Notes under the pieces: model-generated
Told to the model about the DNA's origin: nothing
The model's input: the letters and a program-made list of their open reading frames with translations, nothing else
The model's database searches: none
Part shown: positions 927 through 37,135 of the stretch, piece after piece
Layout of the letters: every line of letters begins with the position of its first letter
Position numbering within the stretch: position 1 is the first letter of the stretch
Position numbers and translations under genes: made by a program
Assembly (NCBI GenBank): GCA_016212185.1
Contig: JACRGX010000026.1
Span: 1-37,883, forward strand
DNA length: 37,883 bases
DNA from: Nitrospirota bacterium
GTDB taxonomy: Bacteria > Nitrospirota > Thermodesulfovibrionia > UBA6902 > DSMQ01
Direction: 5' to 3'

Positions 927-2606
927 ATGCTTAAAGTCGCCACTGCCGGGGAGATGCGGGATATTGACCGTAGTACGATTAAAAAATACGGCATTGCAGG
1001 GACTGTGCTTATGGAGAGGGCAGGACGTGCAGTAGCTGAAAAAATAAATAAACTGTTCACTGTTCACTGTTCACCGTTCACTGTCTTTATTTTTTGCGGA
1101 GGCGGCAACAACGGCGGGGACGGGTTTGTCATTGCAAGGCTTCTTCATGAGCAGGGTAAAGATGTTAAGGTCTTTCTTTCGGCAAAACCCGAAGATTTAA
1201 AAGGCGACGCAAAAATTAATTATGACTCCGCCGTAAAATCCGCCGTCAGGATTTTTTCTTTAAAAAAGTTTTTGTCTGTTCACTGTTCACTGTTAACTGT
1301 TAACTGTCTCATTGTTGATGCCCTCCTCGGCACAGGACTCAGCAAGCCCGTAGCAGGAGACCTTGCAAAATGTATTACCTTGATAAACAGTCATAGGTTG
1401 TCAATTGCCCAGAAGTCCGGAGTTTGCCTGCCAGCAGGCAAGCTCCAGACTTCTAACTTTGCAGTGGTTTCCGTTGACATCCCCTCAGGCATCTCATCAG
1501 ACACAGGACAGATTATGGGTTGTGCGGTTAAGGCAGACTATACAGTCACTTTCGGACTTCCCAAAAGAGGACACCTGCTGTATCCCGGGGCTGAACATAC
1601 CGGGGAATTATTTATTGAGAAGATCGGCTTCCCTGATGAACTGCTTGCATCAGAAAAAATCAAGGTTAATTTAATAGAAAAGCCTGATGTAATCAAGCTG
1701 CTTCCTCAAAGACCAAAATATTCCCACAAAGGAACGTACGGGCACGTGCTTTTAATAGCAGGTTCAAGGGGAAAAACCGGCGCAGCATTTATGTCTGCAA
1801 AGGCGTGCCTCAGGGCAGGCGCCGGACTTGTGACAATAGGGGTGCCGGAGTCTCTTTTAAATATATTTCAGGCGAGGGTTACTGAGGAGATGGTTTTACC
1901 CCTGCCTGACAAAGGGAACGGCACGCTTTCATTCAGGGCAGTTGACGCGATACTTGAATTTATCAGCAAAAAAGTAAAGGTCTTTGCCATAGGTCCGGGA
2001 ATTTCTGTCAGCGATGATATCTCAAAATTAGTCGGTGCGCTTATTATAAATTCAAAAGTCCCAATGGTTATTGACGCTGACGGAATCAATGCGATTGCAG
2101 GCAGAAGCAGTATTTTAAAAAAGGCAAAGGCGCCGGTAATTCTCACGCCTCATGTCGGGGAAATGGCAAGGCTTTTGGAGGGGTCAAGGGGTCAAGGGGT
2201 CAAGGGGTCAAGGGGGGTAACCGCAGGCTTTAGCCTGCGTGAAAAAGTAGAAGAAAACAGAATTGATACTGCAATTTCCTTTGCAAAGAAGACTAAGGCG
2301 TATCTCATACTTAAAGGTGTCCCGACTGTGATTGCCACTCCCGGGGGCGATGCATTTATAAACCCCACGGGCAATCCCGGAATGGCGACTGCCGGTACAG
2401 GAGATGTACTGACAGGCATGATTTCTGCCTTGCTTGCTCAGGGCTTAAGCCCTCAAAATGCTGCAATTTCAGGTAGTTATATGCACGGAATTACCGGAGA
2501 TGTTATTGCCGGCAGAAAAGGGGAACATTCCTTAATCGCATCTGATATGATTAATGCAATACCCGCCGTTTTTAAATCGCTTGTTGAATTTCACGCTAAA
2601 GTGTAA
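927..2606 (+). CDS. nnr: Bifunctional NAD(P)H-hydrate epimerase / ADP-dependent dehydratase
   Basis: The enzyme repairs damaged NADHX/NADPHX: the N-terminal half epimerises, and the C-terminal half dehydrates the S-form with ADP. ATG 927 matches the family start (MLKVATAGEMRDID); GGGAGG sits upstream at 908-913. The NnrE domain (about 1-230) shows GGGNNGGDG, VDALLGTG and VDIPSG. The NnrD domain (about 245-559) shows KGTYGHVLLIAGS, VIDADG, LTPHVGEMARL and the catalytic GTGDVLTG. At 559 residues it is longer than usual (about 500), because four repeat-derived segments interrupt it in frame near residues 42-52, 117-127, 162-176 and 418-438. The catalytic motifs are intact, so it is probably functional. 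Confidence 0.93.
   Translation: MLKVATAGEMRDIDRSTIKKYGIAGTVLMERAGRAVAEKINKLFTVHCSPFTVFIFCGGGNNGGDGFVIARLLHEQGKDVKVFLSAKPEDLKGDAKINYDSAVKSAVRIFSLKKFLSVHCSLLTVNCLIVDALLGTGLSKPVAGDLAKCITLINSHRLSIAQKSGVCLPAGKLQTSNFAVVSVDIPSGISSDTGQIMGCAVKADYTVTFGLPKRGHLLYPGAEHTGELFIEKIGFPDELLASEKIKVNLIEKPDVIKLLPQRPKYSHKGTYGHVLLIAGSRGKTGAAFMSAKACLRAGAGLVTIGVPESLLNIFQARVTEEMVLPLPDKGNGTLSFRAVDAILEFISKKVKVFAIGPGISVSDDISKLVGALIINSKVPMVIDADGINAIAGRSSILKKAKAPVILTPHVGEMARLLEGSRGQGVKGSRGVTAGFSLREKVEENRIDTAISFAKKTKAYLILKGVPTVIATPGGDAFINPTGNPGMATAGTGDVLTGMISALLAQGLSPQNAAISGSYMHGITGDVIAGRKGEHSLIASDMINAIPAVFKSLVEFHAKV
1053..1084 (+). repeat. Tandem heptamer CTGTTCA array inside nnr
   Basis: There are four successive copies of CTGTTCA, the last with one change (CCGTTCA), followed by CTGT. 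They encode a short FTVHCS-type peptide between the first helix and the GGGNNGGDG motif. The same word recurs at 1276, 28394 (inverted) and 30507 (inverted). Confidence 0.9.
1276..1307 (+). repeat. Second CTGTTCA/CTGTTAA array inside nnr
   Basis: Two CTGTTCA copies are followed by two CTGTTAA variants. The array is read as SVHCSLLTVNC, directly before LIVDALLGTG, so it replaces or extends a surface loop while keeping the frame. Confidence 0.88.
1411..1454 (+). repeat. Imperfect palindrome inserted in nnr
   Basis: The arms AGAAGTCCGGAG.TTGCCTGC and their inverted partner surround a CTGCCAGCAG centre. In frame it adds the residues QKSGVCLPAGKLQTSNF between INSH and VVSVDIPSG. A related CTGCCGG.AGG element follows the tRNA-Gln gene near 30320. 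Confidence 0.8.
2180..2239 (+). repeat. GGGGTCAA octamer array plus 8-bp palindrome inside nnr
   Basis: Four tandem copies of an 8-base word GGGGTCAA (2180-2217) are followed by CGCAGGCT-TT-AGCCTGCG (2222-2239). Together they encode GSRGQGVKGSRGVTAGFSLRE in the NnrD domain, just after the conserved HVGEMARLL. The octamer family recurs in waaA at 18732-18834. Confidence 0.9.
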
Positions 2607-2672
2607 AGTATTTTTACGGCATAACTTTTTGAATTATTTAATTTTTTCATGGGTGTTATAAGTATTATTTAA

Positions 2673-2701
2673 TTGACATTGTAAGAAAAAAATAATAAAC
2701 T
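2673..2701 (+). promoter_or_regulatory. Candidate sigma70 promoter of the FG-GAP/PEP-CTERM gene
   Basis: TTGACA (2673-2678), a 17-base spacer and TAAACT (2696-2701) lie in an AT-rich 174-base gap, about 80 bases before the ATG at 2781. Confidence 0.55.
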
Positions 2702-2780
2702 TCTATTATATTCATACATACATTGTTATTCATAAGAAAATCAATAATTAAAAAAATATAAAATTCAAAGGAGGTATTTT

Positions 2781-36266: not shown

Positions 36267-37055
36267 ATGCTGACGAGAACAGAAGGCATTGTCCTGAAGA
36301 CACAGCAGTACGGCGAGGCTGATTTAATAGTAACCTACCTTACCTTAAGCAGGGGGATAATCAAGGCCTTTGCAAAAAGCCCGAGAAAGACAAAAAGCCG
36401 GTTTGGAAGCAGTATGGAACCCCTCACTTACGCCCAAATATCATTGTGGGGCAAGGAACAATCAATGCCCAGAATTACCCAGTCTGACATCATTAACTCA
36501 TTCTGCAGTTTAAGGGAAAGTTTTAAGGATTTCACCTATGCATCAAAACTTATTGAAATATTGATTTCAATAACCCCTGAAGGCATACCCAATAAGAAAC
36601 TCTTTTTGTTTTTGCTGAGTGTTCTGAATTTTGCCGAGGTTCAGATAACTAAAGACTCAAAACTGAAAACTAAGAACTGGGACATGAGAAATAAAAACAA
36701 AGATACCATGTATTTAATCTTTCAGGTTCGTTTGCTTGTCATGATGGGTTATGCGCCTCGGCTTAAGAGCTGCGGCAAATGCGGCGCTAAAAGCCCTGAT
36801 TTTTATCCGCATTTAGGGACAGCCCTTTGCGGCAGGTGTGCCGTGCCTTCTGTCAAAGGCAGAGAATTTCCGCTGAGACTTACGGACAGCGCCATAAATT
36901 TTTATTCGCACAGCATTGAATGGCCCATTAATATCTCAACGCGGCTCAAGCCGCATCATGAAACTGTTTCAAGGCTTTCGTCTGTTATGGACGAACACCT
37001 GAATCATTTGCTTGGCAAGAAATTAATGACGTCGGAGTTTTTGGCAAAAGTTTAG
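36267..37055 (+). CDS. recO: DNA repair protein RecO
   Basis: RecO loads RecA with RecR in gap repair. The 262-residue protein has the N-terminal OB-fold start (TRTEGIVLKTQQYGEADLIVTYLT, GIIKAFAKSPRKTKSRFGS) and a zinc-finger pair CGKCGAKS.....CGRC in the C-terminal helical part. Residues about 127-138 (ITKDSKLKTKNWDM) are written by an AACTGAAAACTAAGAACT repeat, probably a loop insertion. No ribosome-binding site precedes ATG 36267; a GTG/TTG alternative was not seen. Confidence 0.93.
   Translation: MLTRTEGIVLKTQQYGEADLIVTYLTLSRGIIKAFAKSPRKTKSRFGSSMEPLTYAQISLWGKEQSMPRITQSDIINSFCSLRESFKDFTYASKLIEILISITPEGIPNKKLFLFLLSVLNFAEVQITKDSKLKTKNWDMRNKNKDTMYLIFQVRLLVMMGYAPRLKSCGKCGAKSPDFYPHLGTALCGRCAVPSVKGREFPLRLTDSAINFYSHSIEWPINISTRLKPHHETVSRLSSVMDEHLNHLLGKKLMTSEFLAKV
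36647..36679 (+). repeat. ACTAAAGACTCAAAACTGAAAACTAAGAACT words inside recO
   Basis: Four AnACT-spaced 7-8 base words encode TKDSKLKTKNW. This is a weaker, more diverged array than those in nnr and waaA. Confidence 0.65.
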
Positions 37056-37077
37056 CGGATGATATATCATTAACCCG

Positions 37078-37110
37078 AAAATCCCCCTCTTTGACAAAGA
37101 GGGGGATTTT
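37078..37110. terminator. Bidirectional terminator between recO and the MopE-like gene
   Basis: The perfect stem AAAATCCCCCTCTTT / AAAGAGGGGGATTTT (37078-37092 and 37096-37110), loop GAC, has A and T runs at both outer edges. It lies between converging genes. The centre is the same as the palindrome inside the MoeA fusion gene at 23522. Confidence 0.85.
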
Positions 37111-37135
37111 ACGCATCACGAATTACGCATTACGG
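37111..37135. repeat. ACGCATCACGAATTACGCATTACGG word
   Basis: Two ACGCATnACG copies, the same family as the insertion at 30913-30931 in ispE. It ends 3 bases before the MopE-like stop codon. Confidence 0.85.

Follow-up and report, generated by a model that had tools for sequence, protein, structure and literature searches.

Short tandem arrays at the nnr, waaA and ispE loci

The stretch of DNA analyzed here, contig C26 of a Nitrospirota bacterium (GenBank assembly GCA_016212185.1; 37,883 nucleotides [nt], hereafter the window, meaning the whole stretch), carries short tandem arrays of 7- or 8-base units both inside core genes and between genes. The arrays are genuine and occur at a frequency far beyond chance: 100 shuffles gave a mean of 0.00 matches to the two doubled words, which are matched 2 and 5 times in the window. 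They probably belong to one genome-wide, fast-turning family of heptad and octad arrays that is filtered by selection for reading frame and stop codons.

Three arrays lie within nnr (927..2606, plus strand), which encodes the bifunctional NAD(P)H-hydrate repair enzyme (TIGR00196 and TIGR00197 above cut-off; 2ax3, E 9.7e-94). Array 1 (1052..1084, plus) comprises 4.7 copies of ACTGTTC at a slot where relatives carry other words. Array 2 (1276..1316, plus) comprises 5.7 units, ACTGTTC followed by ACTGTTA, with words that change in register between genomes, and array 3 (2179..2215, plus) comprises 4.6 copies of the octad GGGGTCAA at an alignment gap relative to the solved TM0922 chain. In the Kdo transferase gene waaA (17869..19242, plus; family match and structure-chain alignment), two octad arrays separate the conserved halves: 4.4 copies of GGGTTCAA (18732..18766, plus), of which only a remnant is left in the same-genus ortholog, 84 nt shorter, and 4.0 copies of GGGGTCAA (18804..18835, plus). 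The ispE gene (30507..31478, minus; TIGR00154 above cut-off) holds 3.6 copies of the coding-strand word TCACTCG (30848..30872, minus) and a looser inverted partner arm of ACGCATT/ACGCATC-like units (30908..30930, plus), read by eye with approximate boundaries. Every array listed in the original prediction was present, and its naming of the three host genes was borne out by family matches.

Repeat detection also located arrays between genes. An AGTTAAG array (30444..30475, minus) forms the first arm of an inverted pair whose second arm (30493..30522, plus) reaches into the 3' end of ispE, where it encodes the final codons and the TAA stop of that gene. An AAAAGTT array lies between prsA and a tRNA gene (30238..30268, minus), with a looser inverted arm at about 30287-30314 by eye; the tRNA gene (30364-30435) is thus flanked on both sides by intergenic array pairs and alone reached threshold in an Rfam scan of the window. 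Further arrays are found between pth and the bL25 gene (28394..28421, minus; minus-strand units ACTGTTC, ACTGTTT and ACTATTC) and at 37109..37134 (TTACGCA, no strand assigned). An IS256 transposase gene (11499-12725) has longer repeats containing GGGTCAAG nearby, at 12888-12963 and 14282-14355, which are perhaps related to the octad words.

Period and consensus of the array words

Among named relatives of its prsA, the six best are Nitrospirae or Nitrospira MAGs at 67-71% identity. The genome comprises 2.33 Mb in 103 contigs, and the sample drawn from it (the window plus 20 further stretches; the own sample) covers 393,237 bp, about 17% of the genome. Arrays were taken as period-7/8 rows of Tandem Repeats Finder (TRF) with a score of at least 38, and exact runs as at least 13 matched positions with periods scanned from 4 upward. 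Open reading frames (ORFs) came from a hexamer-based caller and were retained at a hexamer score of at least 15 and a length of at least 180 nt. Of the 116 arrays so defined, 72 lie in called ORFs, 15 at ORF edges and 29 outside, with 89% of bases coding; because the caller demands open frames, the comparison of in-gene with outside arrays is partly circular.

The heptad arrays are direct repeats of 2-6 units, and a few imperfect arrays reach 9-12 units. Among the 73 exact runs of the own sample, 57 have a period of 7, 8 or 14 (33, 14 and 10, respectively, with 16 others); one has period 4 and none period 6 or 9, while one Markov shuffle of the same sample yielded no exact run of period 4-15. 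The relatives from the same order (87 loci, 347 kb around nnr, ispE and waaA, picked for array-bearing genes) gave 46 runs of period 7, 2 of period 8 and 10 of period 14 among 63, again with no period 6 or 9, and 400 kb of one genus gave 23, 2 and 2 among 44, the rest having periods of at least 15. No exact run of period 7 or 8 was longer than 37 nt in either the own or the one-genus sample. Sequence surrounding prsA in other phyla (686 kb) yielded 48 exact runs, of which 8 have period 7 (four in Tychonema) and 35 have periods that are multiples of three. The cyanobacterium Tychonema sp. (L026, 3974-7726) carries heptad arrays of like words, ACTGTTG and ACTGTTA. TRF rows scoring at least 38 within ORFs show a similar spectrum (period 7, 51; 8, 21; 14, 16; 12, 4; 10, 3; 11, 2; 13, 1; none of 6 or 9). 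Periods of 6 or 9 would be safer for the frame in genes and yet are missing among exact runs, which suggests that the period is a property of the generating process.

Alignment of 155 unique exact arrays from this genome and its relatives over rotation and strand gave the heptad consensus R-R-G-T-(C/G/T)-A-R, with 3.6 nats per word compared to 2.4-2.6 for random words (15 restarts for the control, 60 for the data). The octads look like the heptad word with one extra purine, and heptads and octads together share the loose consensus (R)RRGTSAR. No single word dominates, the commonest occurring in 12 of the 155 arrays, and TAACTGA is among the words of this genome. A "dialect" of one word per genome was rejected, as many words were seen in 100 kb from each of four genomes.

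Turnover of arrays at orthologous slots

Comparison of orthologs (30 loci per gene, own copy included) revealed other words at the same codon slots in relatives for all three nnr arrays and for waaA, ispE, aroE, dapF and murD, and orthologs without an array are common for array-bearing genes. At nnr array 2, 23 of 30 genomes share the block length, 16 of them with a significant 7-base period and 7 with a weak array or none; the other seven were dropped (five shorter and array-less by eye, one longer with a different insert, and one row without the block). Unit identity is 0.89 within an array and 0.56 between genomes, whether the same or different units are compared, while the flanks reach 0.71 (120 pairs). 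This pattern reads as concerted change at constant length. Because the block is equally long with and without an array, the array often occupies or rewrites existing codons, and the claim that each insertion adds a loop does not hold in general. One exception in favor of the original prediction is the signal-peptide-like arrays described below, which in one of the three genes are nearly unchanged in the same-genus genome. In aroE, this genome and the same-genus genome G001 carry different in-register words in 22-codon blocks, whereas 28 other relatives have 17-18 codons and are array-less by eye. The waaA loop of four relatives (L163, L164, L165 and L172) holds a different palindromic insert encoding a PPFxKGGxGG-like peptide.

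These observations were extended to close genomes by aligning 30,191 bp of the own sample to G001 at 90-94% identity, where 10 of 15 inspected alignment breaks hold a period-7/8/14 array in one of the two genomes. In the first of two nuoG-like genes, the octad pair of this genome gives way to a heptad pair in G001 with a 3-nt difference, and in ddl and murD whole pairs are replaced in frame with differences of 3 and 18 nt. Seven other in-gene sites are equal in length, with the word unchanged, drifted or, in aroE, switched. Net differences at in-gene array sites are 0, 0, 18, 0, 0, 0, -3, -3, 0, 0 and 84 nt, all 11 (four non-zero) divisible by three as the original prediction had expected, compared to one of seven at edge or intergenic sites (8, 17, 28, 31, 32, 175 and -21); these counts are small, and purifying selection alone would yield divisibility by three. 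Two in-gene breaks (74 and 66 nt) and three outside or at edges (-17, 26 and 46) were left out of the array-site counts. The 74-nt stretch is missing, relative to this genome, from murB of G001 (L321, contig C41, about 5356-5359), which is thereby frame-broken, through assembly error or in reality, and is not an array site. Just upstream of nuoG (L083:4102-4284), an outer octad pair surrounds a heptad array in a stretch 175 nt longer than in G001.

Within the order, individual genomes have between 0 and 604 genome-wide pattern hits, although hits overlap inside arrays and so do not equal array counts, and the reversed-pattern control is unclean since it also picks up arrays such as GTTCACT. 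The periodicity of nnr array 2 follows this genome-wide density (Spearman 0.58, n = 23, P = 0.004), which argues for a process acting on the whole genome and against selection on a single loop. A second coefficient (0.67), for which five genomes were given an arbitrary periodicity of 0.2, is not relied upon.

Orientation of arrays within genes

Units of 7 or 8 bases cycle through all frames within three copies, so that a perfect array of at least three units in an intact ORF must be stop-free. Read in the direction written, pure GTTCACT and GGGGTCAA arrays are free of stop trinucleotides, whereas TGA occurs in their complements, as had been noted originally. The accompanying statement that arrays in genes are always stop-free proved too strong: in the nnr array at 1276, two units read GTTAACT and place a TAA in another frame, and of the 72 in-ORF arrays 11 have a stop-containing coding-strand word and avoid the stop through phase or imperfection, the word being stop-free in the other 61. 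Stops are absent from 39 of the 40 in-ORF arrays defined by exact runs; the 7 runs outside ORFs or at edges are too few to judge orientation. When the orientation bias was examined across the own sample, 50 of 57 in-ORF arrays with a stop on one strand only were found to face the stop-free way and 7 the opposite way. The intergenic array at 28394, once cited as inverted, is so only with respect to the plus strand of the window; its neighbors, pth and the bL25 gene, are minus-strand genes, and the array is stop-free in that direction, so it is no evidence for both orientations between genes.

At the consensus core, one strand has TCA where the other has TGA, which leaves one strand clean and gives rise to the orientation rule. 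Core counts were made after dropping the 41 of 145 arrays that scored below 2 on the consensus. Where the consensus strand is the coding strand, the core is TCA in 17 arrays, TGA in 5 and other in 12; where it is the template strand, TGA appears in 27, TCA in 3 and others in 4. Outside genes the cores are TCA (12), TTA (8), TGA (2), GCA (2) and TAA (1), and at gene edges TGA (7), TTA (3) and TAA (1). Within genes, selection couples word and direction. The orientation rule is therefore real, not absolute and compelled by ORF intactness. The bias is not evidence of a dedicated system, because it follows from intact ORFs and the common core, and the logic is already in print for TAACTGA repeats, whose forward repeats stop in all frames and whose ORF-internal copies lie in the stop-free orientation (MacGregor 2015, PMC4679880, in excerpt).

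Pairing of arrays as inverted arms

Neighboring arrays at most 100 nt apart, with both arms scoring on the consensus, tend to form inverted pairs of a single polarity. A plus arm precedes a minus arm in 13 pairs of the own sample and 26 elsewhere, the reverse order occurs in 0 and 1, and same-strand pairs number 5 and 2 (overall, 39 inverted pairs of one polarity versus 1 reverse and 7 same-strand), the pairs elsewhere including orthologous ones that are not independent. Those pairs came from the relatives' loci, the same-genus genome and 20 stretches around Y1 transposase matches (6 of them in this genome), with 3 duplicates removed. Arms were scored with a rounded consensus matrix in which zeros were set to 0.005, and pairs with an arm scoring below 2 were set aside (17 of 35 own and 31 of 60 non-redundant pairs elsewhere, 48 in total). 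By base composition, the 35 own pairs divide into 20 purine-then-pyrimidine, 1 reverse, 13 same-orientation and 1 unclear. Both arms lie inside one gene in 11 purine/pyrimidine pairs. Such inverted pairs, consensus-strand arm first, could form hairpins on a single strand.

Host genes and position of arrays in the protein

Arrays were found in 39 ORFs; 33 of these were scanned against profiles and 30 gave a family match at 1e-10, several under the curated cut-off. The families include MurD, NuoG, AroE, UvrA, PrmC, GspD, GspE, GspK, CbiD, CobJ, Ddl, LolA, CarA, AddA, TilS, DapF, NagA, agmatinase and a Cas6-like protein. Aligned with TM0922, nnr array 3 falls at a gap and array 2 beside a five-residue gap, while array 1 is nearly gapless. 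The waaA arrays (residues 288-322) lie between the stretches that align to a solved Kdo transferase (46-278 and 331-419), and the ispE array likewise separates two aligned stretches, of which the second is weak.

Arrays come after the start codon in three exported-protein-like genes: LolA-like (L087:539-1237), GspD (L091:15015-17180) and D-Ala-D-Ala-peptidase-like (L092:2878-3912). They encode hydrophobic segments such as LFTVHCLLFTV and have apparently been co-opted as signal peptides. The LolA-like and GspD genes, although unrelated, share nearly the same start array segment (L087:1126-1228 and L091:17066-17168; 84% over 126 nt). An all-versus-all comparison of 85 sites gave 171 pairs at 1e-6; among the best 45 listed, five exceed 120 nt, of which at least one is paralogous (both nuoG-like) and the LolA/GspD pair is not. 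The two nuoG-like genes of this genome carry a near-identical octad pair at equal position (L083:5138-5212 and L083:18870-18944).

Proposed origin of the arrays and competing explanations

The consensus, the period, the polarity, the concerted change at the nnr slot, the slot differences in other genes, the replacement between close genomes and the divisibility by three were all directly observed. The account that we favor, and hold to be probable, is that a single array family turns over rapidly across the genome under selection for frame and stops. Its members would share the loose consensus (R)RRGTSAR, usually in no more than about 5 units, and would often be arranged as inverted arms capable of forming hairpins. 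The units of one array would be kept alike, while whole arrays would be swapped for other words at fixed tolerant slots. In genes, selection would retain frame-preserving outcomes, mostly with TCA and not TGA on the coding strand, which would generate the orientation rule. Copying in a 7/8-base register, by slippage or template switching with the help of inverted arms, may keep the units alike, and a putative trans-acting activity may spread or exchange arrays. The part of the original prediction that described a genome-wide micro-repeat family, with many members in core genes and filtered by frame and stops, is supported.

Several observations weigh against this account. The consensus is loose, with 41% of own arrays above the 95th percentile of random words; imperfect arrays are less exclusive in period (TRF rows scoring at least 30: period 7, 146; 8, 57; 9, 36; 10, 25; 6, 6); and the 13 same-orientation pairs do not conform to the inverted arrangement. 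Turnover is not universal, since the D-Ala-D-Ala-peptidase-like gene has nearly the same arrays in this genome and in G001. Plain slippage shifts length by 7 or 8 and would break genes, the constant length of nnr array 2 requires length-neutral copying or repeated filtering, and the octad-to-heptad replacement in nuoG exceeds slippage. Unit variants are unclustered along arrays (runs test, 75 mixed columns, z = 0.55), so that copying from neighbor to neighbor is not supported and slippage with adjacent copying was rejected.

Two candidate causes were set aside. Loss of mismatch repair is not needed, since MutS was matched in 47 of 47 genomes, 42 of them above cut-off. Reverse transcriptase shows no association with array density (P = 0.64 and 0.51), and RVT_1 had no match in this genome or in G019, the genome with the most pattern hits.

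An unlikely alternative is that the arrays are mobile hairpins resembling miniature inverted-repeat transposable elements (MITEs) or repetitive extragenic palindromic (REP) elements, moved in trans by a Y1 transposase of the IS200/RAYT (REP-associated tyrosine transposase) type, with fresh copies keeping their units alike. Y1_Tnp is missing in 8 of 47 genomes, which are array-poor (median 1.4 versus 15.9 pattern hits per Mb), and its absence goes with low density for both patterns used (P = 3e-4 and 6e-4) and by genus (4 lacking versus 20 bearing, P = 0.006). The inverted-pair organization, the whole-array replacement, the 175-nt array-bearing stretch present in only one of two close genomes and the closely similar start segments of the unrelated LolA-like and GspD-like genes would also be accounted for. 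However, words differ at most sites, unlike in a family of copies, and G016 has 36 pattern hits without Y1. REP elements with a RAYT are described as flanking the transposase genes and as bearing a GTAG or CGTC tag at the foot of the palindrome (PMC3733652 for the tag). This genome (G000) has 6 Y1 matches, but Y1 neighborhoods are unenriched: the 79.6 kb surrounding 20 matches contain 18 TRF rows, or about 23 per 100 kb, whereas the own sample has about 37 per 100 kb under an equal score threshold, and the neighborhoods in this genome hold 2 rows in 21 kb. A concentration of arrays beside Y1 genes was accordingly rejected, and the association, which may merely mark genomes rich in mobile DNA, is a lead and not a mechanism.

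A more speculative extension, which we regard as improbable, is that a dedicated trans-acting activity writes and rewrites 7/8-base tandem RRGTSAR cassettes at hairpin-prone sites throughout the genome, core genes among them, exchanges entire cassettes at fixed slots, and is absent or weak in some species of the order. Suspicion would fall first on a Y1 relative, given the scarcity of arrays where Y1 is missing; some cassettes would have been co-opted as signal peptides, and the heptads of Cyanobacteria, Beggiatoaceae and Geobacter would likewise be its traces.

It is very unlikely that the arrays serve a nucleic-acid-binding protein as target sites maintained by selection at the DNA or RNA level, with the in-gene slots marking places where binding pays. 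The common consensus, period and polarity would fit such sites, and regulatory roles have been proposed for TAACTGA repeats and Geobacter heptads (excerpts of PMC4679880 and PMC2700814), but the words of nnr array 2 diverge beyond the flanking codons, wholesale replacement would be odd for a recognized site, and array-less orthologs are common. Finally, the reading of the original prediction as an evolutionary system for writing new loops into essential enzymes is scarcely credible and unsupported beyond a hint of co-option as signal peptides: the arrays of core enzymes do coincide with variable loops or linkers, and those of three exported-protein-like genes form the N-terminal hydrophobic, apparently signal-peptide segment, but array orientation is compelled, most of the sites compared encode peptides that differ between genomes and change with every word change, and arrays are under-represented in genes (72 of 116 versus 89% coding).

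Significance and comparison with known repeat systems

The fixed slots in orthologous genes, together with the order-wide range of pattern hits, make the cause of the arrays testable by comparison and knock-out. The arrays also caution annotators that repeat turnover can build the variable loops of conserved proteins and perhaps their signal peptides. Beyond the orientation rule lies a larger and less well explained phenomenon: loosely related heptads and octads, fixed in period and in the polarity of their pairs, undergo turnover within core genes.

Degenerate heptad repeats comparable to these are known as the short tandemly repeated repetitive (STRR) sequences of cyanobacteria. Phase-variable simple repeats have units of 1-5 nt, compared to 7 or 8 here, and switch genes by unit number; between genomes, the in-gene array lengths here are equal or differ by multiples of 3. 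The remaining systems are compared as far as the excerpts of the cited reports go.

The TAACTGA repeats of Beggiatoaceae, Cyanobacteria and Bacteroidetes (PMC4679880) likewise have a heptad period, few units and a stop-free direction in ORFs. There, one word dominates, similar ones are rarely repeated, and the repeats are mostly intergenic and lie a short way upstream of start codons; here, many words follow a loose consensus, 72 of 116 arrays lie in ORFs of our own caller, and words change between orthologs. Degenerate heptads pair into a hairpin in the P6b element of the Nostoc tRNA-Leu intron (PMC3488679), as they may here, although those sit in an intron and the present pairs are also found inside protein-coding genes. 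In Geobacter metallireducens (PMC2700814), elements of four tandem heptads occur in 49 copies within and between genes, locations shared by the arrays here, and both heptanucleotide and octanucleotide four-unit elements are described, other classes being paired opposite-strand sites; each class has a fixed consensus with no word switching in the excerpts, whereas words switch here at orthologous slots.

Rickettsia palindromic elements (PMC10969869) are palindromic and lie in frame in genes, similar to the in-gene pairs with length differences divisible by 3 found here, but they are about 150 bp long and form recognizable families with conserved peptides; the arms here are mostly arrays of 20-40 nt with differing words, although five of the 45 best site pairs listed match over more than 120 nt. 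The GGGNATC heptads of Xanthomonas and Nostoc (Rehm 2015, PMC4692102) share the heptad period, a preference for four units and some inverted pairs, but they are G-rich, under-represented in coding sequence and read as G-quadruplexes, while most words here lack such G runs. The same report notes an over-representation of heptameric repeats in many bacterial genomes, for which detailed literature was then lacking. Searches restricted to a set of open-access papers, judged by titles and abstract openings, gave no report of word switching at orthologous coding slots. Compared with these systems, the orientation logic of the Nitrospirota arrays is already in print, and their unusual part is the turnover of words inside core genes.

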